A stretch of DNA of 64,000 nt from assembly GCA_964019135.1 (NCBI GenBank), contig OZ025250.1, positions 48,577,174 to 48,641,173 on the forward strand, in the 5' to 3' direction. The notes beneath the pieces were generated by a model that was given only the letters and a program-made list of their open reading frames with translations, was not told the origin of the DNA and made no database searches. Positions 2,830-32,758 of this stretch are shown in pieces (within the stretch, counting starts at the first letter, position 1; each line of letters starts with the position of its first letter). The DNA comes from Arenicola marina (lineage: Eukaryota > Annelida > Polychaeta > Arenicolidae). A program made the position numbers and the translations under genes.

Positions 2830-3029
2830 NNNNNNNNNNNNNNNNNNNNNNNNNNNNNNNNNNNNNNNNNNNNNNNNNNNNNNNNNNNNNNNNNNNNNNN
2901 NNNNNNNNNNNNNNNNNNNNNNNNNNNNNNNNNNNNNNNNNNNNNNNNNNNNNNNNNNNNNNNNNNNNNNNNNNNNNNNNNNNNNNNNNNNNNNNNNNNN
3001 NNNNNNNNNNNNNNNNNNNNNNNNNNNNN
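2830..3029. other. Assembly gap (200 N)
   Basis: Exactly 200 N. The round length indicates a scaffold placeholder. Sequence on both sides comes from the same 1.3-kb segment. Confidence 0.98.
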
Positions 3030-4301
3030 GACCTATTGGTGTGTGACCTTTTACATCGGGCTTATGATATGGGCCAGAGGCATTAAATCACTGTTTGTTA
3101 CATGTGTTCATGACATATTGGGACGAATAAAGGGATGTATGAACGTATATATAAGTTCATATTAAGTGATTCGAATTGAATTTCTTAGCGTCTGGGGAAG
3201 ATGTATGTATATATATATATATATATGTCCCTTGGATGCCAATGGCCTGTGCAGCCTAATCCATTACATGGCGACGTACCCCCCCCCCTCACCCCCCACC
3301 CCTGCCACCCCCCCCCCCGGCCTCGCCTTCACTCAGCAGCAATCATCGCTGCCCACCCCTAACCAGTGACGGAGGTGAGTAACAGCTGTGACACTTACTC
3401 TATTGGCGGTAGCGTAATCAGACCAACTCGTACATAGCGCCTCCTGAAGGTCAACCGATTCAATTGAAGGTCACACTTCCCAGTTCATACAACCCCCCTA
3501 CCCCTTTCCATGCCCACCCCCAGACACACACACCTCTCTCCACCCCACCCTAACAGACACCCCCCCCCTCCTGCCCCACACCCACCCCCACAGACACACC
3601 CTTCCCCCTCCCCACCCTAACCCCCACAGACACACCCTTCCCCCTCCTCACCCCCCCCTCCCCCACAGACACCCCCTCTTCCACCCCACCCCCTCCCCCC
3701 ACAGATTCGTTGTGCTGGGGTTTACCTCGCTCATCTGCTACCCTGCCATCATTGCTACAGGGACATCTTCATCAACCCCTACCTCCACCATGTCATTCCC
3801 ATAACGAGGAATACGATAGGTCTACTTAATAGTAAACAATTGCTTCAGACTTAATGACGAATAGGTGGATGGATGGGTTGGCCCTCTAGGGCCTTTTTTA
3901 AAATTATTCGTTCTAATTGTGGATACTATCATGATATATTTGTTCTGATGTGGATAATATCATTAAATATTTGTTCTATTTGTTGATACTGATATTAAAT
4001 CTTTGTTCTAATGAGGATGTCCTTAAGTATGTGTTCCCTTTGAGAGTTTCTTCGTTCCGTTTTATGCCCGGAAGACCGGTATTATGCCCGCGTTGGTAAT
4101 TTTTATAATCGAGTAACAGTTCTGTGTAAGTTGATTGCACCGCCTTGCACCGCCCAATGGCAGGAAGTGTAAGGAATTAAAGCACCTTTACACATTTTCT
4201 CTCTTTTTTGTTCACGGTTTAAGTTAAGTCAAGTAAAATGTGAATTACCCCCCCCCCCCCCCCCCCCCCACACTTGACACCCTTGTGCGATGTGATAGAC
4301 G
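3030..4301 (+). repeat. Right copy of the 1.3-kb segment duplicated across the gap
   Basis: This repeats 1531-2829 with small differences: length changes in C runs and the TA tract, loss of part of the C-rich minisatellite, and scattered substitutions. It starts exactly inside the right terminal repeat of MITE copy A. It could be a true tandem duplication, but two haplotypes placed on either side of a gap fit at least as well. Confidence 0.85.
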
Positions 4302-13498: not shown

Positions 13499-13572
13499 AC
13501 TTACATGTTAACCTCCCCAAGCAAACCATTAGGGAACATGCTCAGTGGGCTTGATTTACAAGGAACGTCCCC

Positions 13573-15975
13573 GGCTCAGTTGGTAAGGCAGCTGAGCTGC
13601 AGATCAACGGGTTGTGGGTTCGCGCCCCGGCACGGCGCCTTTATCTGGGGCAAGTCTTCCCGGCTCAGTTGGTAAGGCAGCTGAGCTGCAGATCAACGGG
13701 TTGTGGGTTCGCGCCCCGGCACGGCGCCTTTATCTGGGGCAAGTCTTCCCGGCTCAGTTGGTAAGGCAGCTGAGCTGCAGATCAACGGGTTGTGGGTTCG
13801 CGCCCCGGCACGGCGCCTTTATCTGGGGCAAGTCTTCCCGGCTCAGTTGGTAAGGCAGCTGAGCTGCAGATAAACGGGTTGTGGGTTCGCGCCCCGGCAC
13901 GGCGCCTTTATCTGAGGCAAGTCTTCCCGGCTCAGTTGGTAAGGCAGCTGAGCTGCAGATCAACGGGTTGTGGGTTCGCGCCCCGGCACGGCGCCTTTAT
14001 CTGGGGCAAGTCTTCCCGGCTCAGTTGGTAAGGCAGCTGAGCTGCAGATCAACGGGTTGTGGGTTCGCGCCCCGGCACGGCGCCTTTATCTGAGGCAAGT
14101 CTTCCCGGCTCAGTTGGTAAGGCAGCTGAGCTGCAGATCAACGGGTTGTGGGTTCGCGCCCCGGCACGGCGCCTTTATCTGGGGCAAGTCTTCCCGGCTC
14201 AGTTGGTAAGGCAGCTGAGCTGCAGATCAACGGGTTGTGGGTTCGCGCCCCGGCACGGCGCCTTTATCTGAGGCAAGTCTTCCCGGCTCAGTTGGTAAGG
14301 CAGCTGAGCTGCAGATCAACGGGTTGTGGGTTCGCGCCCCGGCACGGCGCCTTTATCTGGGGCAAGTCTTCCCGGCTCAGTTGGTAAGGCAGCTGAGCTG
14401 CAGATCAACGGGTTGTGGGTTCGCGCCCCGGCACGGCGCCTTTATCTGAGGCAAGTCTTCCCGGCTCAGTTGGTAAGGCAGCTGAGCTGCAGATCAACGG
14501 GTTGTGGGTTCGCGCCCCGGCACGGCGCCTTTATCAGGGGCAAGTCTTCCCGGCTCAGTTGGTAAGGCAGCTGAGCTGCAGATCAACGGGTTGTGGGTTC
14601 GCGCCCCGGCACGGCGCCTTTATCTGGGGCAATTCTTCCCGGCTCAGTTGGTAAGGCAGCTGAGCTGCAGATCAACGGGTTGTGGGTTCGCGCCCCGGCA
14701 CGGCGCCTTTATCTGGGGCAAGTCTTCCCGGCTCAGTTGGTAAGGCAGCTGAGCTGCAGATCAACGGGTTGTGGGTTCGCGCCCCGGCACGGCGCCTTTA
14801 TCTGGGGCAAGTCTTCCCGGCTCAGTTGGTAAGGCAGCTGAGCTGCAGATCAACGGGTTGTGGGTTCGCGCCCCGGCACGGCGCCTTTATCTGGGGCAAG
14901 TCTTCCCGGCTCAGTTGGTAAGGCAGCTGAGCTGCAGATCAACGGGTTGTGGGTTCGCGCCCCGGCACGGCGCCTTTATCTGGGTCAAGTCTTCCCGACT
15001 CAGTTGGTAAGGCAGCTGAGCTGCAGATCAACGGGTTGTGGGTTCGCGCCCCGGCACGGCGCCTTTATCTGAGGCAAGTCTTCCCGGCTCAGTTGGTAAA
15101 GCAGCTGAGCTGCAGATCAACGGGTTGTGGGTTCGCGCCCCGGCACGGCGCCTTTATCTGGGGCAAGTCTTCCCGGCTCAGTTGGTAAGGCAGCTGAGCT
15201 GCAGATCAACGGGTTGTGGGTTCGCGCCCCGGCACGGCGCCTTTATCTGGGGCAAGTCTTCCCGGCTCAGTTGGTAAGGCAGCTGAGCTGCAGATCAACG
15301 GGTTGTGGGTTCGCGCCCCGGCACGGCGCCTTTATCTGAGGCAAGTCTTCCCGGCTCAGTTGGTAAGGCAGCTGAGCTGCAGATCAACGGGTTGTGGGTT
15401 CGCGCCCCGGCACGGCGCCTTTATCTGGGGCAAGTCTTCCCGGCTCAGTTGGTAAGGCAGCTGAGCTGCAGATCAACGGGTTGTGGGTTCGCGCCCCGGC
15501 ACGGCGCCTTTATCTGGGGCAAGTCTTCCCGGCTCAGTTGGTAAGGCAACTGAGCTGCAGATCAACGGGTTGTGGGTTCGCGCCCCGGCACGGCGCCTTT
15601 ATCTGAGGCAAGTCTTCCCGGCTCAGTTGGTAAGGCAGCTGAGCTGCAGATCAACGGGTTGTGGGTTCGCGCCCCGGCACGGCGCCTTTATCTGAGGCAA
15701 GTCTTCCCGGCTCAGTTGGTAAGGCAGCTGAGCTGCAGATCAACGGGTTGTGGGTTCGCGCCCCGGCACGGCGCCTTTATCTGAGGCAAGTCTTCCCGGC
15801 TCAGTTGGTAAGGCAGCTGAGCTGCAGATCAACGGGTTGTGGGTTCGCGCCCCGGCACGGCGCCTTTATCTGGGGCGAGTCTTCCCGGCTCAGTTGGTAA
15901 GGCAGCTGAGCTGCAGATCAACGGGTTGTGGGTTCGCGCCCCGGCACGGCGCCTTTATCTGGGGCGAGTCTTCCT
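13573..15975 (+). repeat. 89-bp tandem array of a tRNA-like unit, 27 copies
   Basis: Units start at 13573 and recur every 89 bp up to 15887. Each holds an A-box-like GGCTCAGTTGGTAAGG (consensus TRGCNNAGYNGG) and, 44 bp later, a B-box-like GGTTCGCGCCC, the spacing of a type-2 Pol III promoter. GCTC and GAGC can pair as a D-stem. The core TGCAGATCAACGGGTTG is shared with the SINE fragment at 5400-5451. Copies are almost identical; the main variable base is G/A in ATCTGGGGC/ATCTGAGGC, which alternates strictly over units 3-10, giving a 178-bp dimer there. No TTTT occurs inside the array. Short frames of 70-94 codons reading MGSRPGTAPLS are by-products. Confidence 0.95.
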
Positions 15976-17282: not shown

Positions 17283-20200
17283 CTTGAAGAAATAAAATAA
17301 TTGATAAAAGAAAGTCAAAAATCAAAACCACCGGAATTTCGTATTTAAATACAAAGAACCAATTATACTATACAAAATTTCCCAAGAAAATGTAACCACA
17401 GTATAATCTGTGTAGTTGTATAATCAATATAGGCGAAGTGTAATCAATTATATATAACAGGGATCAAGCTTTACTTTACTTTACAAAATATCTGCTTAAA
17501 CTGCCGCATTAAGACCTGACAGCAGTTTTTTTTTGTGGCCGCGCACTGCTGATGATTTAAATGAATTTCGTGTATATTCTCTACAAACCAATCCCTGCAT
17601 AAAAGTTGTAACTGCCATACAATGGCCGCGTGCTCCACAGTGGGGTCATAATAGCGAGAGTTTTTTGCACGTACCATTGAATCTCAAGTCGTCAAGGTCC
17701 GCGTGCCCTGTTTTATACCCAGAACGAGGCTCCTCAGCAGACGCGGCGGCCTGAGAGGTGGTGCCCTCTGCCGGTCTCTCCGTACACTGGCCGTCATCAG
17801 TGGTGTCCAGGGAGCTGGTGAACAGATGGGCCCCAACCACCTGCAAATACAGGCCCAAAAAAAACGAGAATATTTTTGTGCACATGCGGGTTGAATGGGC
17901 CGGGAAATATCCCGAATGGGCCGGGGAATCCCAGGGCAATGACATGGGGTTGGAGGACACGTGCCCCAGATGTAGGTGCTAGGGCGCGAACCCACGACCT
18001 GTTGGTCTGCAGCCCAGGGCGCGAACCCACGACCTGTTGGTCTACAGCCCAGGGCGCGAACCCACGACCTGTTGGTCTGCAGCCCAGGGCGCGAACCCAC
18101 GACATGTTGCTCTGCAGCCCAGGGCGCGAACCCACGACCTGTTGATCTGCAGCCCAGGGCGCGAACCCACGACCTGTTGGTCTGCAGCCCAGGGCGCGAA
18201 CCCACAACCTGTTGCTCTGCAGCCCAGGACGCGAACCCACGACCTGTTGCTCTGCAGCACAGGGCGCGAACCCACGACCTGTTGTCTTGCAGCCCAGGGC
18301 GCAAATCTACGACCTGTTGGTCTGCAACCCAGGGCGCGAACCAACGACCTGTGGCTCTGCAGCCCAGGGCGCGAACCCACGACCTGTTGCTCTGCAGTCC
18401 AGGGCGCGAACCCACGACCTGTTGTCTTGCAGCCCAGGGCGCGAATCCACGACCTGTTGGTCTGCAACCCAGGGCGCGAACCCACGACCTGTTGCTCTGC
18501 AGCCCAGGGCGCGAACCCACGACCCGTTGATCTGCAGCACATCATGGATATTACCTGAGCTAGCGAGGCTCTAGTTTGAGCAAGCTCAAGTGTCACTAAC
18601 GTATCTTATCATAAGGCGACCCAAAGGCAGGTCTTCCAGCGTTAACTTACTATTGCATGATTGATACAAATTGTCTGTTATGCATAATTGCTGGTCTAAC
18701 CACCACAATCGGCCAGTTTAATTCTTAAGAGCTTCAGATATGTACAGATCATTGAAATTTGTGTCACATGCTGGATGATGTGTCACATGCTAGATGATGT
18801 GTCACATGCTAGATGTGTCACATGCTAGATGATGTGTCACATGCTAGATGATGTGTCACATGCTAGATGATGTGTCACATGCTAGATGATGTGTCACATG
18901 CTAGATGATGTGTCACATGCTAGATGTGTCACATGATAGATGATGTGTCACATGCAAGATGATGTGTCACATACTAGATAATATGTGTCATACGCCAGAT
19001 ATTAATTATAAGGGTCATTAGGGATGACAAGGCACATGGCTACCACATCATGTACTTCTAGAGCAAGATGCACACGTCGAACATTTTTGCATTGGTAATT
19101 GCAGTATAACACCAGCTTGGTAAAATAGACCTGGATCCACAATTATACAGGAATTGTAATCAACGGGTCACATGTTTCTTGGTACATCCCTGGTCTCCCT
19201 TTTACATTATAACAAGGATAATAGCTGAAGTGTTGCTAACTCATACCTAGACTAATAGGCAAGGGTTGTGAATATTAAAAAATCACAGACACAGAGTGAC
19301 AACAAATCAAAACAATGGATTGAGGCATTACTTATTTTATATTGTCCAAGTAATTATTGTTGAACCGCAGTTGAATTTGTATTTGCAGTATTTTTGTGCA
19401 ATCAATGTTGAATTTTTTTTTTCATTGTTGAACCACTAAAACATGCGTTATCCATATCTTTGATGAGGAGACAGAACTGTCTCCCACGATATCAGTTGCA
19501 ACTAGAGTTGGCACTACCAACACGGTGTTTGTGTGTTGGTTGCACGCGGGATGCAGCGATTCTGATAGGTACGTGTCCTGCGTCATTTGTCGCACAAAAA
19601 TGACGCATTACATTGAGCTGTGAGGGGACATGGTGACGCATTGTAAATATATAGTGAGCAGACTATTTAATATTTCATTTAGGTTAATGTCCCATTATTT
19701 TTTCGGATGTCCCATTATTTTTTCGGATGTCCCATAATTTTTTTGGAGCTCTGGGACACTGGGACTGACCCACTGGCAAACCTATCAGAATCACTGCTTT
19801 AAGATCTCGTTGCTGGATATGGGAGGGTCGCCGTCGCACAGACACCTACCTCGCCAATGGTCGAGCTGAGGGGTCGCACAGGGCTGCTGGCGTGCTGCGG
19901 GGAGGGCAGGGTATGGCGGAGGGGTCGGGGTGGGGGGTGATCCGGTAAGGATGTCCTGACCGTCCCCCTAAGCCCGGACGCTGCGCCAGACGAAGGTTTG
20001 TCACGTGTCGACCGTTTAACCCCGAACGCCACTTCCGGCCTCGGGATATCCTCAAGGTCACTCACTTCGGTAAAGGTCATTTGGTCGTCGGATAATGCGT
20101 CGGAAGGAACTGGGGGTTTGACCTTTGACCCACGTTTCTTCGAAGGCCATTTGTCCTTGTGCGCTGGGATATCCGACTGCATTTGACCTTTGACTTTGGA

Positions 20201-23200
20201 TTTGTGTCTAGAACGGCGGCCATTTTGTTTGGCTGTGACGTCACTGGCGTCGCTATCATGGGGGTAGTCCCTCTCCGGGATGACTTGCGGCTCGTGACCT
20301 CCACGATCCGCGTCCGCAAGTCTCTCCGAATCCGGCCTTGCCTCAAGGTCAGGGTCATTATTATCCTCAACGCTGGAGAGCTGTTCCTCCCTAATGTTCC
20401 GGAGATGCTTGGCTTTCATTAACTCAAAGCTTTCATCTTCTTCGTCCTCCGCTTGAGTGACCAGCTCCCCGCGCCCTGACAGACTCGTTCCCTGCGCCCT
20501 CTCAACAGCTGCTGGTTCCCGACTTCTTCGCTCTGAACCTTGAGTTGACCTTGAAGGGTCACGGTTCGACCTCCCAGGCGGCCGAGCCGATCCCGCCGCG
20601 CAGTCTTTCCCTTTGAGGGGCGCATGGGTCTCTCCGGTAGGGGGATCACCGCTCAAGCTTGTCAAGTCCGGGGCAGCGCTCTTAACGTCTTTAACGGACC
20701 CCCCACACCCACGTCCCTCAGCCGGCCTCCCGCCTCCACCTCCCTCAGCCGACCTCCCACCCCCACGTCCCTCAGCCGGCCTCTCACCCTTTATGGGCCG
20801 CCCACCTCCACCACCCTCAGGCTGTCTCCCACCCCCACTACCTTCAGGCTGTCTCCCACCCCTCCCGTGCTCCGGACAGGGAAGGATGTCACACGACAGG
20901 TGTGAGTGGGGCTTCACCCCCTCAAAGTCCTGGGTCAGGGACGGACCCCCAGTCACCCCAGGGGTAGCAGACGGGTGATGGAAACAGGGGGGAGAGAGGG
21001 GCGCTTGACTGTGGTGGAGGGGTTGATAAACTGGGTCACTGAGCGTAGTATCGGCAGCCGAGCACCCCTCTCCACACACGGAGGGTCCTACCCCCTGCAA
21101 TCAAATATTAACAGTGGTAATGTCTGTAACGAACTTACAAGCATAGCCGGCAGAGCATATTTCTCCAATAATTAAATAAATAGATATATTTTAGACAATT
21201 ATTTTCGCGATAATCTATCATTAGAGACGTCTATCAGATTAAAGATATGAACATAAGAACATATATACAAAAATATATCCTTTAACTAATTTCTCACCGT
21301 ACTATTTGTTATTATATCCTGCTGTTATCCCCATAACTATTCCGGATTCGGTATTACAGATGTTTCATGTTAATTATCCAAGAACTATTATACTAATCGA
21401 GCATCGATATAATTGAGAAACCTATGAAATAAAAACCGTTTGAGGCCTGGAAACCTGTGTCGTGTATTGACTGACCTGAGGGGGTCGCGTTGGCCTGGAA
21501 ACCTAAGTCGTGTATTGACTGAACTGAGGGGGTCGCGTTGGCCTGGAAACCTAAGTCGTGTATTGACTGACCTGAGGAGGTCGCGTTGGCCTGGAAACCT
21601 AAGTCGTTTATTGACTGACCTGAGGGGGTCGCGTTGGCCTGGAAACCTAAGTCGTGTATTGACTGACCTGACGGGGTCGCGTTGGCCTGGCAACCGCAGT
21701 ACGCGTCGGGGGTTCCCCTTCGTGTCGACCTGGGTAGGCAGTAGGCCCCAGGCCCGGTCCCTGCTCCACGCTCTGCCCCAGGCGCGGCCCCTGACCCACG
21801 CTCTGCCCCAGACCCTGCCCCAGCCCCCGGGCCAGCTGCCGCCGAAACTCAGCAAGCCTGACATCCACATTGGCCTCCGTCACCTGTAGTCATGAATAAA
21901 TAAAGCCTGACATCCACATTGGCCTATGTCACCTGTAGTCATGAATAAATAAAGCCTGACATCCACATTGGCCTCCGTCACCTGTAGTCATGAATAAATA
22001 AAGCCTGACATCCACATTGGCCTATGTCACCTGTAGTCATGAATAAATAAAGCCTGACATCCACATTGGCCTATGTCACCTGTAGTCATGAATAAATAAA
22101 GCCTGACATCCACATTGGCCTATGTCACCTGTAGTCATGAATAAATAAAGCCTGACATCCACATTGGCCTCCGTCACCTGTAGTCATGAATAAATAAAGC
22201 CTGACATCCACATTGGCCTCCGTCACCTGTAGTCATGAATGAATAAAGCCTGACATCCACATTGGCCTCCGTCACCTGTAGTCATGAATAAATAAAGCCT
22301 GACATCCACATTGGCTTCCGTCACCTGTAGTCATGAATAAATAAAGCCTGACATCCACATTGGCCTCCGTCACCTGTAGTCATGAATAAATAAAGCCTGA
22401 CATCCACATTGGCCTCCGTCACCTGTAGTCATGAATAAATAAAGCCTGACATCCACATTGGCCTATGTCACCTGTAGTCATGAATAAATAAAGCCTGACA
22501 TCCACATTGGCCTCCGTCACCTGTAGTCATGAATAAATAAAGCCTGACATCCACATTGGCCTCCGTCACCTGTAGTCATGAATAAATAAAGCCTGACATC
22601 CACATTGGCCACCGTCACCTGTAGTCACGAATAAATAAAGCAATTTTCTTGAAGGAAACCTTGGGACTAAACTGGGCCAAAGATAAGATAAGAAAAGAAG
22701 AGATAAAGCTTATTAAACGTCGTAATAAAAGTAAACAAAAACAAATCCACTAGGGTCTGTAAGTGACGTCAAAGACAGCACACACTGGCCGCTTGGGTTA
22801 GTCTAGCAGAACGCACTCGGTAACAGCCAAGCCCGCTGCCTACCAGGCCACGGGGTGACCCCGGAGGCTCAGGTAGGGAGACATGTCACATAGACAACGT
22901 GTAATAATAATATATTCATCCAAACTACTTTATTTAGGTTTATTAGTGATTCATTTCCACTCACAGCATAATTCCACGGCATCCAAATTTAGATAATATC
23001 CCACGTGAAAAGAGGCAGAAAAAAACCCAGCAAAACAAGACTCACCTTGCCCGACAGTCCCGTTGACCTTGGCAAGGTCATCCCGCCGGACCCCTTGGCA
23101 CGTATCGCCTCCAGCTTCCGCCTCATGCGCCACTGCTGCAGGATGTCGTCTCCGGAGTCCCCGAGCGGCCTCTGGAGCCGGACTCCGCGCTCGTCCAGAC

Positions 23201-26200
23201 CTGGAACAGCATCGCTGGGGGTCTTAGGTCATGGCACTATGCCTAGGAGTATCCATGTACCGTTATCAATGTAGGACTGTTTATCGCTATTTTATACGGA
23301 TTCCCTGTGAGTGGGGAATCCGTAGGTTAGGGTGACAGCCTGACACAGGCTCCGTCACCGATGGGGTTTTGAACGTTGGCATGTACAGTTCTAAAATTTC
23401 AAAGGTTATGTCAACAGCATATTATGAAAAAGGACTTTATCAGTCAGCTAAAAACCTGTTTATCACTCAGTCTAGGACATGTTGATCACTCCGATTATCA
23501 CTGTTTTTCAATCAGTTTATCTGTCGCTGTTTAACCGTTTTGTCAGTCAGTTTATGACCGTTGATCAGTAACTTTATGACAGTTTATCACTCACTGTATG
23601 ACGGTTATCAGTAACTTTATGAGTTTATCACTCATTACATGACTGATATCAGTCATGACAGCCTATCCTTCAGTTTTTGTTTGTATGACGTTCTGGCCGT
23701 GAAGCATTGCTGGTGTACCATGGCGACTCGGCGGCCGTACCTTCGTCCCGGACCCTGGTGAAGCCCGGCCTGACGGGGTCCTCAGAGAAGTACGACCCCC
23801 CGGAGGTGTTACTGCTCAGCAGACCGTCCGTGCTGACGATAGGCTCGGAGGAGTTGAGGCTGCTCTCCCTACAACCGTCACCATTACACCGTATCATAAC
23901 ACACACCATAGCATTGTGCTGACGATAGGCTCTGAGGAGTGGAGGCTGCTTTCCCTACAACCGTCACCATTACACCGTATCATAACACACACCATAGCAT
24001 TGTGCTGACGATAGGCTCTGAGGAGTGGAGGCTGCTCTCCCTACAACCGTCAACATTACACCACATCATAACACACACCATAGCATTGTGCTGACGATAG
24101 GCTCTGAGGAGTGGAGGCTGCTCTCCCTACAACCGTCAACATTACACCACATCATAACACACACCATAGCGTTGTGCTGACGATAGGCTCTGAGGAGTGG
24201 AGGCTGCTCTCCCTACAACCGTCAACATTACACCACATCATAACACACACCATAGCATTGTGCTGACGATAAGCTCTGAGGAGTGGAGGCTGCTCTCCCT
24301 ACAACCGTCACCATTACACCGTATCATAACACACACCATAGCATTGTGCTGACGATAGGCTCTGAGGAGTGGAGGCTGCTCTCCCTACAACCGTCAACAT
24401 TACACCACATCATAACACACACCATAGCATTGTGCTGACGATAGGCTCTGAGGAGTGGAGGCTGCTCTCCCTACAACCGTCACCATTACACCGTATCATA
24501 ACACACACCATAGCATTGTGCTGACGACAGGCTCGGAGGAGTTGAGGCTGCTCTCCCTACAACCGTCACCATTACACCACATCATAACACACACCATAGC
24601 ATTGTGCTGACGATAGGCTCTGGGGAGTGGAGGCTGCTCTCCCTCCAACCGTCAACCTTACACCACATCATAACACACACCATAGCATTGTGCTGACGAC
24701 AGGCTCTGAGGAGTTGAGGCTGCTCTCCCTACAACCGTCAACATTACACCACATCATAACACACACCATAGCATTGTGCTGACGATAGGCTCTGAGGAGC
24801 TGAGGCTGCTCTCCCTACAACCGTCACCATTACACCACATCATTACACACACCACAGCATTGTGCTGACGATAGGCTCTGAGGAGTGGCGGCTGCTCTCC
24901 CTTACAACCGTCACCATTACACCGTATCATAACACACACCAAAGCATTGTGCTGACGACAGGCTCTGAGGAGTGGAGGTTGCTCTCCCTACAACCGTCAC
25001 CATCACACAGTATCATAACACACACCATAGCATTGTGCTGACGATAGGCTCTGAGGAGTGGAGGCTGCTCTCCCTACAACCATCACCATTACACCGTATC
25101 ATAACACACACCATAGCATTGTGCTGACGATAGGCTCTGAGGAGTGGAGGCTGCTCTCCCTACAACCGTCACCATTACACCGTATCATAACACACACCAT
25201 AGCATTGTGCTGACGATAGGCTCTGAGGAGTGGAGGCTGCTCTCCCTACAACCGTCACCATTACACCGTATCATAACACACACCATAGCATTGTGCTGAC
25301 GATAGGCTCTGAGGAGTTGAGGCTGCTCTCCCTACAACCGTCACCATTACACCGTATCATAACACACACCATAGCATTGTGCTGACGATAGGCTCTGAGG
25401 AGTGGAGGCTGCTCTCCCTACAACCGTCAACATTACACCGTATCATAACACACACCATAGCATTGTGCTGACGATAGGCTCTGAGGAGTTGAGGCTGCTC
25501 TCCCTACAACCGTCACCATTACACCGTATCATAACACACACCATAGCATTGTGCTGACGATAGGCTCTGAGGAGTGGAGGCTGCTCTCCCTACAACCGTC
25601 ACCATTACACCGTATCATAACACACACCATAGCATTGTGCTGACGATAGGCTCTGAGGAGTGGAGGCTGCTCTCCCTACAACCGTCACCATTACACCGTA
25701 TCATAACACACACCATAGCATTGTGCTGACGATAGGCTCTGAGGAGTGGAGGCTGCTCTCCCTACAACCGTCACCATTACACCGTATCATAACACACACC
25801 ATAGCATTGTGCTGACGATAGGCTCTGAGGAGTTGAGGCTGCTCTCCCTACAACCGTCACCATTACACCGTATCATAACACACACCATAGCATTGTGCTG
25901 ACGATAGGCTCTGAGGAGTGGAGGCTGCTCTCCCTACAACCGTCACCATTACACCGTATCATAACACACACCATAGCATTGTGCTGACGATAGGCTCTGA
26001 GGAGTGGAGGCTGCTCTCCCTATAACCATCACCATTACACCGTATCATAACACATACCATAGCATTGTGCTGACGATAGGCTCTGAGGAGTGGAGGCTGC
26101 TCTCCCTATAACCGTCACCATTACACCGTATCATAACACACACCATAGCATTGTGCTGACGATAGGCTCTGAGGAGTGGAGGCTGCTCTCCCTACAACCA

Positions 26201-29200
26201 TCACCATTACACCGTATCATAACACATACCATAGCATTGTGCTGACGATAGGCTCTGAGGAGTGGAGGCTGCTCTCCCTACAACCATCACCATTACACCG
26301 TATCATAACACATACCATAGCATTGTGCTGACGATAGGCTCTGAGGAGTGGAGGCTGCTCTCCCTACAACCGTCAACATTACACCGTATCATAACACACA
26401 CCATAGCATTGTGCTGACGATAGGCTCTGAGGAGTGGAGGCTGCTCTCCCTACAACCATCACCATTACACCGTATCATAACACATACCATAGCATTGTGC
26501 TGACGATAGGCTCTGAGGAGTGGAGGCTGCTCTCCCTATAACCGTCACCATTACACCGTATCATAACACACACCATAGCATTGTGCTGACGATAGGCTCT
26601 GAGGAGTTGAGGCTGCTCTCCCTACAACCGTCACCATTACACCGTATCATAACACACACCATAGCATTGTGCTGACGATAGGCTCTGAGGAGTGGAGGCT
26701 GCTCTCCCTACAACCGTCACCATTACACCGTATCATAACACACACCATAGCATTGTGCTGACGATAGGCTCTGAGGAGTTGAGGCTGCTCTCCCTACAAC
26801 CGTCACCATTACACCGTATCATAACACACACCATAGCATTGTGCTGACGATAGGCTCTGAGGAGTGGAGGCTGCTCTCCCTACAACCGTCACCATTACAC
26901 CGTATCATAACACACACCATAGCATTGTGCTGACGATAGGCTCTGAGGAGTGGAGGCTGCTCTCCCTACAACCGTCACCATTACACCGTATCATAACACA
27001 CACCATAGCATTGTGCTGACGATAGGCTCTGAGGAGTGGAGGCTGCTCTCCCTACAACCGTCACCATTACACCGTATCATAACACACACCATAGCATTGT
27101 GCTGACGATAGGCTCTGAGGAGTGGAGGCTGCTCTCCCTACAACCGTCACCATTACACCGTATCATAACACACACCATAGCATTGTGCTGACGATAGGCT
27201 CTGAGGAGTTGAGGCTGCTCTCCCTACAACCGTCACCATTACACCGTATCATAACACACACCATAGCATTGTGCTGACGATAGGCTCTGAGGAGTTGAGG
27301 CTGCTCTCCCTACAACCGTCACCATTACACCGTATCATAACACACACCATAGCATTGTGCTGACGATAGGCTCTGAGGAGTGGAGGCTGCTCTCCCTACA
27401 ACCGTCACCATTACACCGTATCATAACACATACCATAGCATTGTGCTGACGATAGGCTCTGAGGAGTTCAGGCTGCTCTCCCTACAACCGTCAACATTAC
27501 ACCACATCATAACACACACCATAGCATTGTGCTGACGATAGGCTCTGAGGAGTGGAGGCTGCTCTCCCTACAACCGTCACCATTACACCGTATCATAACA
27601 CACACCACAGCATTGTGCTGACGATAGGCTCTGAGGAGTGGAGGCTGCTCTCCCTACAACCGTCACCATTACACCGTATCATAACACACACCATAGCATT
27701 GTGCTGACGATAGGCTCTGAGGAGTGGAGGCTGCTCTCCCTACAACCGTCACCATTACACCGTATCATAACACACACCATAGCATTGTGCTGACGATAGG
27801 CTCTGAGGAGTTGAGGCTGCTCTCCCTACAACCGTCACCATTACACCGTATCATAACACACACCATAGCATTGTGCTGACGATAGGCTCTGAGGAGTTGA
27901 GGCTGCTCTCCCTACAACCGTCACCATTACACCGTATCATAACACACACCATAGCATTGTGCTGACGATAGGCTCTGAGGAGTGGAGGCTGCTCTCCCTA
28001 CAACCGTCACCATTACACCGTATCATAACACATACCATAGCATTGTGCTGACGATAGGCTCTGAGGAGTTCAGGCTGCTCTCCCTACAACCGTCAACATT
28101 ACACCACATCATAACACACACCATAGCATTGTGCTGACGATAGGCTCTGAGGAGTGGAGGCTGCTCTCCCTACAACCGTCACCATTACACCGTATCATAA
28201 CACACACCACAGCATTGTGCTGACGACAGGCTCTGAGGAGTTGAGGCTGCTCTCCCTACAACCGTCACCATTACACCGTATCATAACACACACAAGGGCA
28301 CATAGCATTGTGAGATGGGGCTGTACAGTCAATACGGGATCTGATCGAGAACTCACAAAGCAGGGATATTTATGCTCTATGTCAATGCCTAGCATCAACG
28401 GCCTGTACGTGCTGCCTAAAACTGTCCTTGGACGCACAACTAACCACTGAAGTTAGGTGCATATCAGAATTGGGCGCTTATTTTAAGAGCACGTGTTTTT
28501 TTTGTTGGTCTCTAAAGGACTTAAACCGGAAATAGAACCCGCCAGAACTGTACGGCCCTATTGCCGGGAAGTCGCTCGTCGCCAGCAATGAAGGCATTTC
28601 CCCCTTTTCCGAGCAGTATATTCAGTGGCCTATTTCACGTATAGATTAGAGCCACCTGAGCGTAGTCTCTATAGGTACTCACGACTTCGCCAGCAGTTTC
28701 TCAGCCCTTTGTTGTAGTTTCTCGGTTTCTTCATCACCCTGTTGGAGTCTGTCGTGGTCTTGCAGGCTCCCCTTGTTAACGACAGAAGATGGCGGAGACA
28801 GTTACGGGACATACCTTCACTCAGTCACTTCTACACCAGTATTGCTGCAGATTCAGCGCGCAATGAGTATGTTAAGCAAAGTGGCCTGCACACAACCTCG
28901 ATATCAAATTGTCTACATAAGAAAGTAATATACAAAAATCTCGTAAACGCGAGAGGGAAGAGTTCATCCTGCCTATTAGTAGTGAGGGTTTCCGTCCATG
29001 CAAAGCCAATACCCATGACAATTTTCCGAAGACAAAATTTTAGGCTGTGTCTTGCTATATTGGTGACATAACAAAATAAAATTATAGCCAATAAATGAAC
29101 GAACTATATAGTACTCGACATAAATAAAAGGCGGGGGGGGGGGCGTCTTTTGATCTCATTGCCGAATACTGAATACCGCGTGGTATGTATACGGCATCAG

Positions 29201-29941
29201 TCATGCACAATAGTACAGTACATGTACCACCTTTGACTACTGCAGCACTGGGCGCATCTCTTTCTGGTAACCCGGGTGTATCCCTACGGTGGACCGAATA
29301 CGCACATTACGCATCGGTTTACCGCCCGACACTTCTTTCACCCTCTATTCGGGTATGCCGATATGCCCCGTTCAAAACAGGACGGGCCATTCGGGAGAAG
29401 ATGGCGGCTGATTGCAAAGTGACTGTTTAGGCTTGTTCCATGTCGCCCAAATGAACCGGACATGACCGGTGTGAACATTGACATTCGGCGTAGCCCTATC
29501 GGCAGGTCCGGTAGAGCTCGAGTATACCGGGTGGCCTACCGCTCCTGGCCCAAAGAAATGCGCCCACTGCTCCTACTGCATTCGGCACCAAAATCAAAGT
29601 TATGGTAGAGGCAATGCCAACAGATCAACTCGCTACCTCTCTATGAGATCATGCAGAAACATGAACTGCTCATAATAATCAGCAACAATTTAGTCGCCAT
29701 CGAGATATTATTGATCCATAAGAAGCCACTCTCACTGACCTTTGTCAGGTTCCTTCCATGGGTGGACGCCGAGCCGCTGGATTCGTCTGGATCTCTCTTC
29801 CGGAGCCACCAGAAATCCTTGGGATCTGTCGCCCGCTTGTGTTCCCGATCAGCTCGGCTCTGTGGCATTCCGGAGCGAAATCTCTCAATGTATCTTAAAT
29901 TAAAGACAACATAATGGTAACTAGATCGATAGATTTATAAA

Positions 29942-29974
<33 letters not shown>

Positions 29975-32758
29975 AATACATAACAAATATGCAAATTTTA
30001 GTATTTAGATCTTTAAAAAAATATGTGTACAAATAAATATAAAAATGATAGAAATTAAATACTTTGACAGGGTGGAAGTCCCACGGCCAGGCGCCCCATC
30101 CTTGGCAGCGGCCTTCTCATCCGGACCATTCCCGTCCTGGTATCGGTCAATGTTGAGCCGACTCCTGAAGGATCCCAGGACTGTTATTGGCGAGGAGCTC
30201 CTGGGTTCTGAAGAGGATTCGGCAAGAGCGCCGCCAGGGACGCGTCTGGAGCCGGACACGACAGGACTTCCAAGGTCATCTGGGTCGATAATGCTGTAAC
30301 ATAATTACGATAATAAAATATATTTCAAAAACTAATAATAAAAATAAAAAATAATAATAAACGAAAGATTATGAGAACGCCTTCCTCAGTTTTTGGACTT
30401 GAAATTATATGTGCCAGAAGCTATACTACAGACCAGTAATTACTCATGCAAAAATTATAAGCATTTACAAAAAAATTGGAAATGGAGGTATTAATTACAA
30501 TTCTACACAACAGTGGATATATATATATTTTCAAAAAGTAATACAAAATTTTTCAAACTATACAAGTTGATGTATGTGGATAATTATATTACAAGACTAC
30601 AGTGGGTTTGCTACCTTATTGTTGACGGCCGCTCACTGGCCGGCCATGACTCGTCAAACTTCTCAGGACTTGCATCCAGCTCTCCAACTGACGGCAACTG
30701 AGACAGTTTGCCAAATCTGGGCATCCCCTTCAGAAAATCTTTATCCCCAGCATGTAGGTCCCCATCGCGATCAGCCGCCCTCAAGCGACTGGGGCTAAGA
30801 TGCACCTGCAGGGTCATTTGCAGACGGATTAAACATTTAGTGGCCGTGTGAGCACCTGCAAAACCATAATCTGACAATCAAATGCCTTTGTTCTAATGTT
30901 CCATGTAATGAGTCAGTCTTAGCTTTTGAATAAGTCTCAATATGGTCACTAGGAATATACAGTGAAAGATTAAGGCTTGCCATATATATATGTATATATG
31001 TAAGTAACCAGGTAATATGAGACACCAGTGACATACAAGAGGAAAAAGGCTCAGCTTCTTACCTGTTTCTGTTGCAATGACAGATCTCTCAGAGGCGACG
31101 GATGATAAAATGTTTTTGGAAGTGGCTGTTCATAAAAAGGGTCCTTGCTGGAAAAGAATAATGATATCAAAATTCAGTATAAAATTGTGAGCATCAAACC
31201 ATTTCAGCGAAAATTTGATAAGTCAGTTAATTAAAGATAACTTAATCAAGATATGATGTTAATAAGGGACATCACGCACGCTTTGCCCGGAACTGCTGAA
31301 CATGGCGCATGACGGGTTGCATCTACAACCCAGATGGACTTCTGCAGCTAAATCCCTTGCAGATACGATTCATACCTTGTCCAAAGCAGTGACACAGTTG
31401 CCTCCACTGCTTCCCCCCCTACCAGTCTCCACCTCCCCCAACCCCCCACCACCTCCCCCCACCTACTGCTGCCTACCCCCCTCCCATCTTCTACTGTACT
31501 CCTGTTAATAATGGGTGCAGATATCAGTGTATGGACAATAGCCTCAGTGTTCATTCCCTGTGAATGCTTATTCAATACGGCATGGCAAGCAAATATAAAT
31601 ATGCTTGAAAATGACACCCAAAATACAGATCATTTGACAACATAAGAAGGGCATGAGCACCGAGGCGTGTATGCGTCACCAAGTATATTCGCACATGAGC
31701 GAACTGCCATATTTGCTAATCATTGCGCACAGCGAGACAGTTGAAGCAGCAGACTAAATCACCTTGCGTACCTTTATAATATGAGCAAAACATGTCAACT
31801 AAAAGGTTAGATAATAGATTAAGTTTCATAGAATACGGAAATGGTAAGGTCTATGCATACTACTACCAGAAAGTAATTTGAATTTATTTATTTTTAATAA
31901 CCCATTTGATTTTGGCGGCAGCGTCAATGCGCTGCTTCAGGACCCTTACTGGCCTTATCCTAGGTCAGTAAAGAGGAGCTTGTGACTCCTGGGTCCCTCG
32001 GGGCTAGGTGTGAATGGTGTGGTTGGGAAACTCCACAGGCGCCGCAGATCAACTGACACTAGCCCTGGAACATGGCCCACCGGCCGCAGGGCGGACAGAA
32101 GGGCCATGGATTAACGATCCAGCCTGTCGTCCAATAGCAGGGGGTGGTGACAATGATTTCTGGATTTCACAAAAACGTGATGGAGACGGCACATATCATT
32201 CACATATTCATGTCCAGTATACAATTATGAAGAGTTACGCACAAAGATTGAAGACCCTACGCGCTACTTCCGAATTCATCAGTCCACCAAAGTTCAACCA
32301 AAACAACCCCCCCCCCCGCCTGTGTCAGTCGATCTGCGGTGCCTGCGCCTGTGGCCAGTGTGGGTCGTGGGAAACACGTTCTGACTTGCTAAATAGGCCT
32401 ATTTGTAAGCTTAGATCTAAACTTACACAATTAGATACAAAAACAAACGATATGCCGTTAAGTTTACCATGAATATGTCGCATTTGCGTCTTGTTATACC
32501 TAGTTGTCATGTCGTTCAGCTTGAACAATGCAATAACAGGCTGCAATGACACCCATTAACACAGCAGACACCAGAATCTTTCAAACTCTTGGTTGTTTCC
32601 CTCCATGTTGACACTCGACGCAGAACGAGGCTAGGGAGCGGTTGTTAATTCAGCGACAACGTCAATCTCCAGAAGTATGGCGCTAGTCGTATCCCCAAGC
32701 CCATCGTATCCCCAAGCGTAACCTCAGTTTTACAGGCGGCGTCGTCATCAGACGCCAT
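17134..32758 (-). CDS. PROSER3: PROSER3 ortholog (proline and serine rich 3), 13 coding exons, 961 aa predicted
   Basis: Thirteen minus-strand exons with GT-AG borders join without breaking frame: 36+41+85+191+231+154+89+128+155+216+1245+166+149 bp = 2886 bp, 961 residues plus stop. The identification rests on short blocks that match, in order, the vertebrate PROSER3 (C19orf55) sequence as I remember it: FDESWP (104-109; human FEESWP), KYIERF (195-200; human KYINRF), DFWWL (221-225; identical), LQQRAEKLL (265-273; human LQSRAARLL), and DDILQQWRMRRKLE (336-349; human DDILYQWRQRRKLE). The rest is disordered, rich in Ser, Pro, Gly and acidic residues, with no membrane segment or enzyme fold. As I recall, the human protein is roughly half as long; the extra length is mostly the 415-residue exon 11. 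I know of no established biochemical role. Introns are loaded with minisatellites, three of which overlap splice sites. The 5' end is the least certain part: a shorter start at ATG 32510 is possible. Confidence 0.85.
17675..17840 (-). CDS. PROSER3: PROSER3 exon 12
   Basis: 166 bp, phase 0 to 1. Acceptor TATTTGCAG, donor ATG|GTACGT. Encodes VVGAHLFTSSLDTTDDGQCT and onward to LDDLRFN. Acidic and Ser/Thr-rich. The 35-bp tRNA-like array begins about 140 bp upstream in the preceding intron. Confidence 0.8.
17982..18541 (-). repeat. 35-bp tandem array of a tRNA-like half unit, 16 copies, in PROSER3 intron 11
   Basis: Units start at 17982 and recur every 35 bp. On the minus strand each reads TGCAGACCAACAGGTCG then TGGGTTCGCGCCC: the anticodon-side and T-arm part of the tRNA-like unit found at 13.6 kb, with the B box kept and the A box lost. 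The right-most unit (TGCAGATCAACGGGTCG) is closest to the 89-bp unit. All six frames are almost free of stops here (up to 278 codons), which is a repeat artefact. Confidence 0.93.
18761..18973 (+). repeat. 19-bp minisatellite in PROSER3 intron 11
   Basis: Units of GATGATGTGTCACATGCTA, some shortened to 16 bp by loss of GAT, about 11 copies, decaying on the right (ATACTAGATAATATG). Confidence 0.9.
18974..19849. other. PROSER3 intron 11, remaining part
   Basis: Nothing coding. Contains a 20-bp direct repeat (ATGTCCCATTATTTTTTCGG) three times at 19687-19746, and otherwise AT-rich intronic sequence. Confidence 0.6.
19850..21094 (-). CDS. PROSER3: PROSER3 exon 11, large 415-codon disordered exon
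   Basis: 1245 bp, phase 0 to 0. Acceptor TTGATTGCAG, donor GAG|GTAGGT. Residues about 519-574 are a glycine repeat (GGGRQPEG/GGGRSAEG type). Residues about 658-685 combine an acidic run (EDEEDES) with a predicted helix (FELMKAKHLRNIREEQLSS). The rest is Ser/Pro/Arg-rich with basic patches (RRSRHKSKVK, KKRGSKVK). It is probably disordered throughout. Confidence 0.85.
20699..20866 (-). repeat. Coding 24-27 bp minisatellite in exon 11
   Basis: Encodes successive GGGR-x-x-EG units (about six, 8-9 residues each; one interrupted by PIKGE). Period is a multiple of three, so copy-number change keeps frame. It is a length-variable region candidate. Confidence 0.75.
21445..21690 (-). repeat. 48-bp minisatellite x 5 carrying the exon 10 donor site
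   Basis: Units begin at 21445, 21493, 21541, 21589 and 21637, with the exon 10 edge as a sixth partial copy. On the minus strand each contains CCAACGCGACCCC, then the donor CTCAG|GTCAGTCAA, then ACGACTTAGGTTTCCAGG. In the coding frame the intronic part meets a stop (TAG) after six codons, so use of a downstream copy of the donor would end translation. Confidence 0.93.
21668..21883 (-). CDS. PROSER3: PROSER3 exon 10, flanked by splice-site repeats on both sides
   Basis: 216 bp, phase 0 to 0, 72 residues. Acceptor ATGACTACAG, donor CAG|GTCAGTCAA. Encodes VTEANVDVRLAEFRRQLARG, then an internal 10-residue repeat (LGQSVGQGPR, LGQSVEQGPG), then a Pro/Thr/Arg tail. Its 5' border lies in the 49-bp array and its 3' border in the 48-bp array. 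Confidence 0.82.
21856..22639 (-). repeat. 49-bp minisatellite x 16 carrying the exon 10 acceptor site
   Basis: Units start at 21856 and recur every 49 bp. On the minus strand each contains TTCATGACTACAG| and 28 bp of exon 10 sequence (GTGACGGAGGCCAATG...GTCAGGC). The unit nearest the exon supplies the real acceptor at 21884; 15 more lie upstream. The junction CAG|GTGACG also fits a 5' splice site. Variation is slight, mainly CTCCGTC/CTATGTC. Confidence 0.95.
23046..23200 (-). CDS. PROSER3: PROSER3 exon 9, DDILQQWRMRRKLE block
   Basis: 155 bp, phase 1 to 0. Acceptor CTGTTCCAG, donor AAG|GTGAGT. Encodes LDERGVRLQRPLGDSG, then DDILQQWRMRRKLEAIRAKG. A basic helix with Trp at its centre; the vertebrate block is DDILYQWRQRRKLEQAQ. 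Confidence 0.9.
23201..23740. other. PROSER3 intron 8, degenerate short repeats
   Basis: From about 23420 to 23680 the plus strand is full of variants of TTTATCACTCA and CAGTTTATGAC at irregular spacing, an old decayed minisatellite. No coding potential seen. Confidence 0.6.
23741..23868 (-). CDS. PROSER3: PROSER3 exon 8, whose acceptor is inside the 86-bp array
   Basis: 128 bp, phase 2 to 1. Acceptor GGTTGTAG, donor GAAG|GTACGG. Encodes ESSLNSSEPIVSTDGLLSSN and onward to TRVRDEG; the SSxxSxDGLS pattern matches the vertebrate Ser-rich block. The first 38 bp and the intron bases before them are the last unit of a 52-copy tandem repeat, so the real acceptor has 51 near-identical upstream copies. 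A second in-frame AG lies 9 bp further in. Confidence 0.85.
23831..28299 (-). repeat. 86-bp minisatellite x 52 carrying the exon 8 acceptor site
   Basis: The 86-bp unit runs for 4.5 kb. On the minus strand it reads ATGGTGACGGTTGTAG| then GGAGAGCAGCCTCCACTC and on to TCGTCAGCA: 48 bp of intron end plus 38 bp of exon start. The unit at 23831 is the real exon 8 border; 51 others lie upstream in intron 7. Variation is mostly CACTCC/AACTCC in the exon-derived part and AACATTACACCACATC/ACCATTACACCGTATC in the intron part. Long runs of identical units suggest recent homogenisation. Confidence 0.96.
28683..28771 (-). CDS. PROSER3: PROSER3 exon 7
   Basis: 89 bp, phase 0 to 2. Acceptor GTTAACAAG, donor TC|GTGAGTACC. 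Encodes GSLQDHDRLQQGDEETEKLQ followed by QRAEKLLAKS, a likely amphipathic helix equivalent to LSLQSRAARLLKRS in vertebrates. Confidence 0.85.
28772..29739. other. PROSER3 intron 6
   Basis: No repeat array. Poly-G tract near 29132. Frames on both strands (28742-29071, 29185-29430) have no recognisable domain and lie inside an intron whose flanking exons join in phase, so I treat them as non-coding. Confidence 0.6.
29740..29893 (-). CDS. PROSER3: PROSER3 exon 6, KYIERF and DFWWL blocks
   Basis: 154 bp, phase 2 to 0. Acceptor TTTAATTTAAG, donor AAAG|GTCAGT. Encodes YIERFRSGMPQSRADREHKR and TDPKDFWWLRKRDPDESS. These are the most distinctive PROSER3 blocks and the main basis for the gene name. 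Confidence 0.9.
29941..29964. repeat. TA microsatellite in PROSER3 intron 5
   Basis: About twelve TA units in an AT-rich short intron. Confidence 0.85.
30063..30293 (-). CDS. PROSER3: PROSER3 exon 5
   Basis: 231 bp, phase 2 to 2. Acceptor TATGTTACAG, donor AAA|GTATTT. Starts SIIDPDDLGSPVVSGSRR and is rich in Ser, Gly and Asp; low complexity is expected for this family. Its split last codon joins exon 6 to make KYIERF. Confidence 0.82.
30615..30805 (-). CDS. PROSER3: PROSER3 exon 4, FDESWP block
   Basis: 191 bp, phase 0 to 2. Acceptor ACCCTGCAG; donor ATAAG|GTAGCA. Encodes LSPSR near the start and SPEKFDESWPAS near the end, corresponding to LSPSR and SPELFEESWPSS in the vertebrate protein. 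An alternative AG 51 bp upstream would put a stop in frame. Confidence 0.88.
31063..31147 (-). CDS. PROSER3: PROSER3 exon 3
   Basis: 85 bp, phase 2 to phase 0, acceptor CTTTTCCAG, donor CAG|GTAAGAA. Encodes (S)KDPFYEQPLPKTFYHPSP and RDLSLQQKQ. Matches the human pattern of SPF, a Pro/aromatic stretch, and Y-x-P-S. Confidence 0.8.
31148..32499. other. PROSER3 intron 2
   Basis: About 1.35 kb. Contains a C-rich stretch (31400-31500) and a poly-C run near 32309. A plus-strand frame of 152 codons (32014-32472) has a few protein-like stretches but no recognised domain and overlaps PROSER3 on the opposite strand. Confidence 0.55.
32500..32540 (-). CDS. PROSER3: PROSER3 exon 2
   Basis: Acceptor CATTGCAG and donor AG|GTATAAC. 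Encodes PVIALFKLNDMTT and ends in phase 2. PVIALFKLND followed by exon 3's KDPF resembles PVFSIQDSPF at the human N-terminus, which supports including this exon. Confidence 0.6.
32723..32758 (-). CDS. PROSER3: PROSER3 exon 1 (putative start exon)
   Basis: ATG at 32758 followed by MASDDDAACKTE, then donor GAG|GTTACG. GC-rich, with a G at +4. It ends in phase 0, which fits exon 2. It is short and its donor departs from consensus at +3, so the assignment is tentative. If it is wrong, translation would start at the in-frame ATG at 32510 in exon 2 (MTT). Confidence 0.45.

Follow-up and report, generated by a model that had tools for sequence, protein, structure and literature searches.

A gene-resident minisatellite that repeats its host's splice acceptor in the annelid Arenicola marina, and related arrays across exon borders of the same genome

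How the spliceosome chooses among identical sites has usually been studied with engineered duplications. Natural duplications of splice sites have been described in lancelets, where minisatellites known as mirages occur in the globin genes BflGb6 and BflGb9 and in Adh3, TnC and PGBD5, with regular splicing reported as undisturbed (PMC3087553, PMC3902484). The BflGb6 mirage is given there as 3 and 6 units in two haplotypes, and the work includes a model for intron gain (PMC3087553, PMC3902484). A second point of reference is the set of decoy exons described as promoting intron retention in human OGT, SF3B1 and ARGLU1 (PMC12017769). Here we analyze a window of 64,000 nucleotides from the annelid Arenicola marina (GCA_964019135.1, an assembly of 867 Mb; contig OZ025250.1, our C3, positions 48,577,174-48,641,173), in which a gene on the minus strand carries a minisatellite, array 1, whose 86-bp unit repeats the gene's own splice acceptor. 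Array 1 is probably a tandem duplication that straddled a splice site, was born at a microhomology, expanded, and would be mostly ignored by the spliceosome, in the manner of a mirage. The array itself appears ordinary and the genome that produced it unusual, with dense intronic minisatellites of which some lie over splice sites.

The repeated acceptor and its sister arrays

A preliminary description of this DNA had reported a 52-copy minisatellite of 86-bp units at 23831-28299, presenting 51 near-perfect acceptor copies ahead of the real one. Both statements hold: Tandem Repeats Finder (TRF) returns 23830-28293 with a period of 86, 51.9 copies and 97% matches, and 52 acceptors can be counted in the minus-strand reading, every one with an intact AG (52/52). 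The unit consists of about 48 intron-derived nucleotides, including the acceptor, and about 38 exon-derived nucleotides; the latter number, already given as 38, is right within the range of 36-39 nt set by a CAC microhomology at the junction. Also upheld is the claim that a GT follows each decoy acceptor after 48 nt, a multiple of three with no stop: the GT is present in 51/51 decoys, in 6/51 as GTATGT, and the insert is open in all 51. Entry into the exon at 23868 in phase 2, from the exon ending at 28683, agrees with a gene model of six exons joined in phase and open for 678 codons, and the true boundary copy adjoining the exon is intact and in the correct phase. Fifty of the 51 decoy units are 86 bp long and one is 87 bp, and together they fall into 23 types. 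The 50 units of 86 bp vary at 22 positions, about evenly spread between the exon-derived part (9/38) and the intron-derived part (13/48). A search of the assembly with the array sequence gave 24 matches, all of them inside the array itself, in a kind of search that can undercount repeats.

Array 1 is no isolated oddity, as the host gene contains two more boundary-spanning arrays that were absent from the preliminary description (Table 1). Array 2 copies the acceptor of the exon at 21883 and keeps the AG in 16/16 copies, with an in-frame TAG inside the exon-derived part in 5 of its 15 decoys. Array 3 copies the donor of that same exon (21668-21883) and retains GT in 4/5 copies, the remaining decoy reading TT. 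Three of the 13 modelled borders of the gene (seven acceptors and six donors, including those of a less certain exon at 30293-30063) carry arrays, and the repeated unit of arrays 1, 2 and 3 alike includes a boundary between exon and intron of the host gene, as in a mirage minisatellite.

At each array junction the two ends of the duplicated segment share sequence, CAC (3 nt) in array 1, GCTT (4 nt) in array 2 and CCAGGCC (7 nt) in array 3, which argues for tandem duplication at microhomology. The exon side of the array 1 junction reads GTCAG-CAC and the intron side CAC-AATGC, and array 1 would have been born by tandem duplication, between two CAC triplets, of a segment that reaches from the intron end into the exon. 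The 7 nt TGCCCTT at the upstream edge of the array are absent from the listed units, and it is at this difference that the GTGTGT of the units sits. One copy would have lost the 7 nt after the duplication, or the edge copy would have gained them; given the position of GTGTGT, the donor-like site may be a by-product of that insertion or deletion. The unit would then have expanded through slippage or unequal exchange. Units 2-8 (B-C-D-E-E-D-F) and 9-15 (B-C-D-E-E-D-D) show the same succession of unit types except at one place, and this pattern is the mark of a block duplication.

Boundary-crossing arrays at motor-protein exons

We surveyed 107 motor-protein exons in the assembly, comprising 30 myosin, 25 kinesin and 52 dynein exons taken from 77 myosin matches (the best 30), 133 kinesin matches (the best 30) and 78 dynein matches (52 of them, rows 1-51 and 53, with row 52, whose match contains four stops, left out). 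Five of the 60 myosin and kinesin loci were dropped (L042, L043, L045, L046 and L051), being on unplaced, foreign-looking contigs with in-frame TAA/TAG. The sample is non-random, exons within a gene are not independent, and neighbouring flanks overlap in places. Borders were inferred without transcripts, from match edges and case-by-case reading, as splice-score refinement left many unresolved. Flanks of 1500, 500 or 250 bases were read, and the copy numbers of arrays running off a flank are lower bounds.

On a curated reading, arrays with exon sequence and the donor in the unit cross the donor of 14 of the 107 exons (L019, L026, L039, L040, L052, L058, L080, L081, L088, L089, L094, L097, L101 and L111). 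Acceptor-crossing arrays number one clear case (L111) and one doubtful case (L067, borderline at 2.3 copies and found on one strand only), and several further arrays approach an acceptor yet end short of it. The imbalance has a Fisher p of 0.0007 (14 versus 1) or 0.003 (14 versus 2), uncorrected for the relatedness of the exons. Arrays found no more than 10 bp outside a match edge cross the border at 14/20 donors versus 1/9 acceptors when curated (p = 0.005), and at 14/20 versus 2/9 in an uncurated positional count (p = 0.04). The positional count, which asks whether an array covers the base lying 10 bp inside the match (14 at donors, 2 at acceptors), differs from the curated one in its members: L036 and L048 are counted there, and L097 is not. 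Curation excluded L036, L048 and L059, where the array lies in the intron under an over-long match, and L102, which may be a coding repeat. It likewise excluded arrays that abut a border without carrying the site, on the donor side at L014, L033, L065, L068 and L086, and on the acceptor side at L076, L087, L088, L094, L112, L120 and L121.

Of the 122 decoy donor copies found in the survey, 121 keep GT, a count made with patterns that favour donor-like copies; at L088, four of eight decoys read CAT/GT (here and below a slash marks the splice junction). The dynein exon at L111 has arrays on both sides, and the two behave differently: its donor decoys keep GT, while all five acceptor decoys have lost AG (four AT and one GG) and the true site has kept it. 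A comparison for extra conservation of the decoy GT gave a mean rank of 0.70 over nine arrays, from which we claim no support, as the comparison was ungapped and favours columns near the anchor, and L039 was off register. Around the first 67 of the exons surveyed, 45,790 of 177,000 flanking bases (25.9%) belong to arrays; coverage stands at 8.2% for the point 10 bp inside the match and rises to 18.7% at +100 and 34.5% at +1100, with an interior control of 3970/15556 points (25.5%).

These counts suggest that boundary-crossing repeats are common in this genome. The excess at donors fits the idea that decoys placed before a true acceptor are costlier than decoys placed after a true donor. In a donor-crossing array the true site is transcribed first and its copies would do little harm, whereas the copies of an acceptor-crossing array are transcribed ahead of the true site. 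An imbalance of 14 to 1-2 is what first-come, first-served splicing combined with selection predicts. The animal offers natural arrays of 2 to 52 near-identical sites in several genes, with the true site first in donor arrays and last in acceptor arrays, and its genome lends itself well to asking, in a natural setting, how a cell recognizes the true splice site among its copies. We regard this wider pattern, as seen in 107 non-random exons, as the most useful outcome of the analysis.

The contigs that hold the five dropped loci (C390, C536 and C504) are of separate interest. Their kinesin-like frames contain in-frame TAA/TAG and no TGA, and a dynein match on C390 also contains TAA. We take this to be the pattern of a ciliate nuclear code, and the contigs possibly derive from a ciliate that lives alongside the worm or inside it.

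Tolerance of the decoys and its alternatives

The acceptor copied in array 1 is the weakest of the six scored in the gene (-2.15, versus 0.82 to 4.35 for the other five). The decoy donor is also weak, with a U1 pairing of -4.2 kcal/mol (-4.8 in the GTATGT form of 6/51 decoys) versus -5.8 for the true donor. A decoy includes 38 of the 128 exon nucleotides and would be without most of what would define the exon. It is because of these three features that we infer the decoys to be mostly ignored, and the likely reason for the tolerance of array 1 is a weak site that depends on the remainder of its exon. The array would survive because the copy beside the exon remains intact, and its effect would be near neutral, with perhaps slight splicing noise. 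No sign was seen of decoys being kept for coding. Among the three readings first offered for array 1, namely harmless filler, splicing decoy and source of variable protein, the weak sites, the even variation and the similar arrays elsewhere fit harmless filler best.

Several observations weigh against such tolerance. The acceptor scores were computed with generic weights, untrained on this species. The array 2 acceptor is the strongest of those scored (4.35), and weakness therefore cannot account for tolerance at array 2. That every AG (52) and every decoy GT (51) is intact is also what a functional decoy would require, although with 22 of 86 positions variable it is not unlikely to have arisen by chance. 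The scarcity of acceptor arrays with intact decoys in the survey indicates that tolerance is not general among such arrays; the window gene, in which arrays 1 and 2 keep 51 and 15 decoy acceptors intact, is the exception. Nor do the decoy acceptors appear hidden: in a rough folding test their mean unpaired probability was 0.379 (standard deviation 0.044) versus 0.27 for the true site. This result gives no support to masking of the decoys by RNA folding.

The reading that gives the array a regulatory role is that the decoys engage U2AF and U1 and either delay intron removal or trigger nonsense-mediated decay, so that copy number sets expression. A reading frame continued past a decoy acceptor is closed by a stop 55-58 nt later in 51/51 decoys, while a decoy that leaves at the GT at +48 keeps the frame in 51/51, and array 1 therefore permits a destructive or an in-frame outcome. 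A role of this kind has a precedent in the decoy exons described as promoting intron retention in OGT and other human genes (PMC12017769), and the rarity of acceptor arrays, with 0/5 decoy AGs intact in the sole clear case, suggests that intact ones have consequences. Against it are the weakness of the sites and the lack of any sign of constraint on the decoys; arrays of this class are moreover common at the donors of conserved genes, all of which are unlikely to be so regulated. We consider the regulatory role unlikely. It is less probable still, and in our estimate very unlikely, that units enter the mRNA as in-frame exons of 48 nt, each coding for 16 residues, and give a protein of variable length. 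The frame-keeping, stop-free exit would allow it, but the donor is weak, divisibility of 48 by three has a one-in-three chance of arising, about 38 of the 48 nt come from coding sequence in any case, and the exon-derived part is as variable as the remainder of the unit. The gap of 38 nt between neighbours is probably too short for an intron, which would leave only non-adjacent units combinable. The in-frame stop in 5/15 array 2 decoys limits this reading to array 1, to which it may apply.

That minisatellites of this genome arise preferentially at splice sites, for instance through breaks linked to transcription or splicing, so that the arrays would be aimed rather than tolerated, could be argued from the 3/13 repeated borders of the host gene and from the donor-crossing arrays at 14/107 survey exons. 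Coverage, however, climbs with distance from the exon and is lower at borders than deep in the intron, which is against arrays being aimed at splice sites and makes this account highly improbable. An assembly artefact that inflated or invented the copy number of array 1 seems the most remote of the explanations. There is a single assembly, with a run of 200 N at 2830-3029 in the window; yet the 23 unit types, their ordered pattern with a block duplication, the unique flanks, the chromosome-length contig and the comparable arrays at other loci of the assembly all speak for a genuine array.

A further idea is that a built-in exit in each decoy is the condition for an acceptor array to persist with its AGs intact; such arrays would form self-correcting splice ladders whose length tunes the time of intron removal. 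In array 1 a chosen decoy would end at the GT 48 nt on and be spliced onward in frame. When an array 2 decoy (AG/GTGAC) is joined to the upstream exon, which ends in AAG, the rebuilt donor AAG/GTGACG pairs with U1 at -6.6 kcal/mol and would let splicing ratchet forward, as in recursive splicing; such a recursive route is a possible explanation for array 2. L111, with its decoy AGs lost, would represent the alternative fate. We put the ladder forward as a speculation of low probability, and hold to the probable reading of a duplication that was born at a microhomology and would be mostly ignored.

Host gene, window and comparison with known systems

The features of the host gene are collected in Table 1. 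A 195-residue query gave four matches in the assembly, all of them exons of this locus, and revealed no second gene copy. A Pfam scan of eight frames, read up to E 1, found no family in seven and two families below the cut-offs in one, and is uninformative on the name PROSER3 that the preliminary description had given to the gene; a PDB search with one exon frame likewise gave no name. Two repeats lie within exons, at 20702-20862 and 21745-21821 (TRF units of 27 and 30 bp), and the length of the protein may be variable there too.

Table 1. Arrays and modelled exons of the host gene (positions in the window; a slash marks the splice junction)
Feature	Position	Strand	Description	Basis
Array 1	23830-28293	minus	boundary-spanning minisatellite, 52 copies (51 decoys + true)	TRF, unit reading
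Upstream edge of array 1	28294-28312	minus	partial unit CACAATGCTATG, then 7 nt (TGCCCTT)	sequence
Array 2	21854-22641	minus	16 acceptors (15 decoys + true), 49-bp unit, acceptor ACTACAG/GTGACGG	TRF, unit reading
Array 3	21444-21695	minus	five donor copies (true + 4), 48-bp unit, CCGTCAG/GTCAGT	TRF, unit reading
Probable further-upstream exon	30063-30293	minus	less certain; acceptor TTACAG, donor AAA/GTATTT, weak U1 pairing (-1.8)	
Exon further upstream	29740-29893	minus		gene model, exon match
Exon upstream of array 1	28683-28771	minus	ends GAAGTC/GTGAGT, phase 2	gene model, exon match
Exon with copied acceptor (array 1)	23741-23868	minus	128 nt, ends GACGAAG/GTACGG	phases, open frame
Exon downstream of copied-acceptor exon	23046-23200	minus	CCAG/GTCTGG ... 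GGCAAG/GTGAGT	gene model, exon match
Exon with arrays 2 and 3 on its two sides	21668-21883	minus	216 nt, phase 0/0	gene model
Last exon read	19799-21094	minus	open to TAA	open frame, gene model

Elsewhere in the window, an array with a period of 25 bp and about 1185 copies (TRF) occupies 30 kb at 33932-64000 and runs to the window end. Two smaller arrays, 27 x 89 bp at 13570-15974 and 16 x 35 bp at 17981-18538, have units with sequence that we take to resemble tRNA promoter boxes (GGCTCAGTTGG, GGGTTCGCGCCC). ARAGORN called no tRNA for either array, and they are perhaps a tRNA-derived element turned minisatellite. The segments at about 1466-1879 and 3030-3369, which flank the N run, have near-identical translations, and their likeness may reflect a real duplication or an assembly join.

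The mitochondrial contig of the assembly (C762, 15,942 bp) was annotated with Pfam for cox1 and ARAGORN for tRNAs. The remaining protein genes were named by eye from invertebrate-code translations, and the places of atp8, cox3, rrnS and rrnL were inferred from gaps between tRNAs; three ARAGORN calls were set aside as false (Ser within nad4L and two on the opposite strand). The order, all on one strand, is cox1 N cox2 D atp8 Y G cox3 Q nad6 cob W atp6 R H nad5 F E P T nad4L nad4 C M rrnS V rrnL L A S L nad1 I K nad3 S nad2, which we take to be the typical annelid order.

The nearest annelid case to array 1 is that of the earthworm metallothionein genes, which are described as having large intronic minisatellites, with exon-4 copies duplicated in one clone and missing from the transcript (PMC12783039). 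In that description the repeats lie inside intron 1 and do not form a tandem array of splice sites (PMC12783039). Our searches of open-licence papers brought up no annelid with splice sites repeated in tandem, a coverage that leaves their absence unproven. Human variable internal tandem repeats at exon-intron boundaries illustrate that boundary minisatellites can alter gene structure; those described change exons or are linked to new introns (PMC2812944), whereas the copies in A. marina appear intronic. The decoy exons of human retained introns, described as intronic pairs of splice sites that are rarely spliced in (PMC12017769), are the closest functional analogue. They differ in having been characterized with RNA, while the A. 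marina case is a reading, from DNA, of dozens of copies of the gene's own site.

Lancelet mirages are the closest match in structure. As described, their unit holds an exon-intron boundary, 5' and 3' types both occur, the copies bear splice signals, and length instability is a reported feature, on which the block duplication of array 1 bears only indirectly. What distinguishes the A. marina arrays is their scale and their host: 52 copies compared with the 3 and 6 of the BflGb6 haplotypes, three arrays in one gene, crossings at 14 of the 107 donors sampled, and an asymmetry between donors and acceptors. The host is not a cephalochordate, its mitochondrial gene order and code fitting the annelids. 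A search for green fluorescent protein gave no match, and carries no weight, as the control genomes gave none either. Array 1 probably works like a mirage, and extending that name to annelids is a matter of definition and not of descent. With the arrays of A. marina a mirage-type phenomenon known from lancelets is found in another phylum, and this bears on the path proposed from boundary repeats to new introns (PMC3087553).

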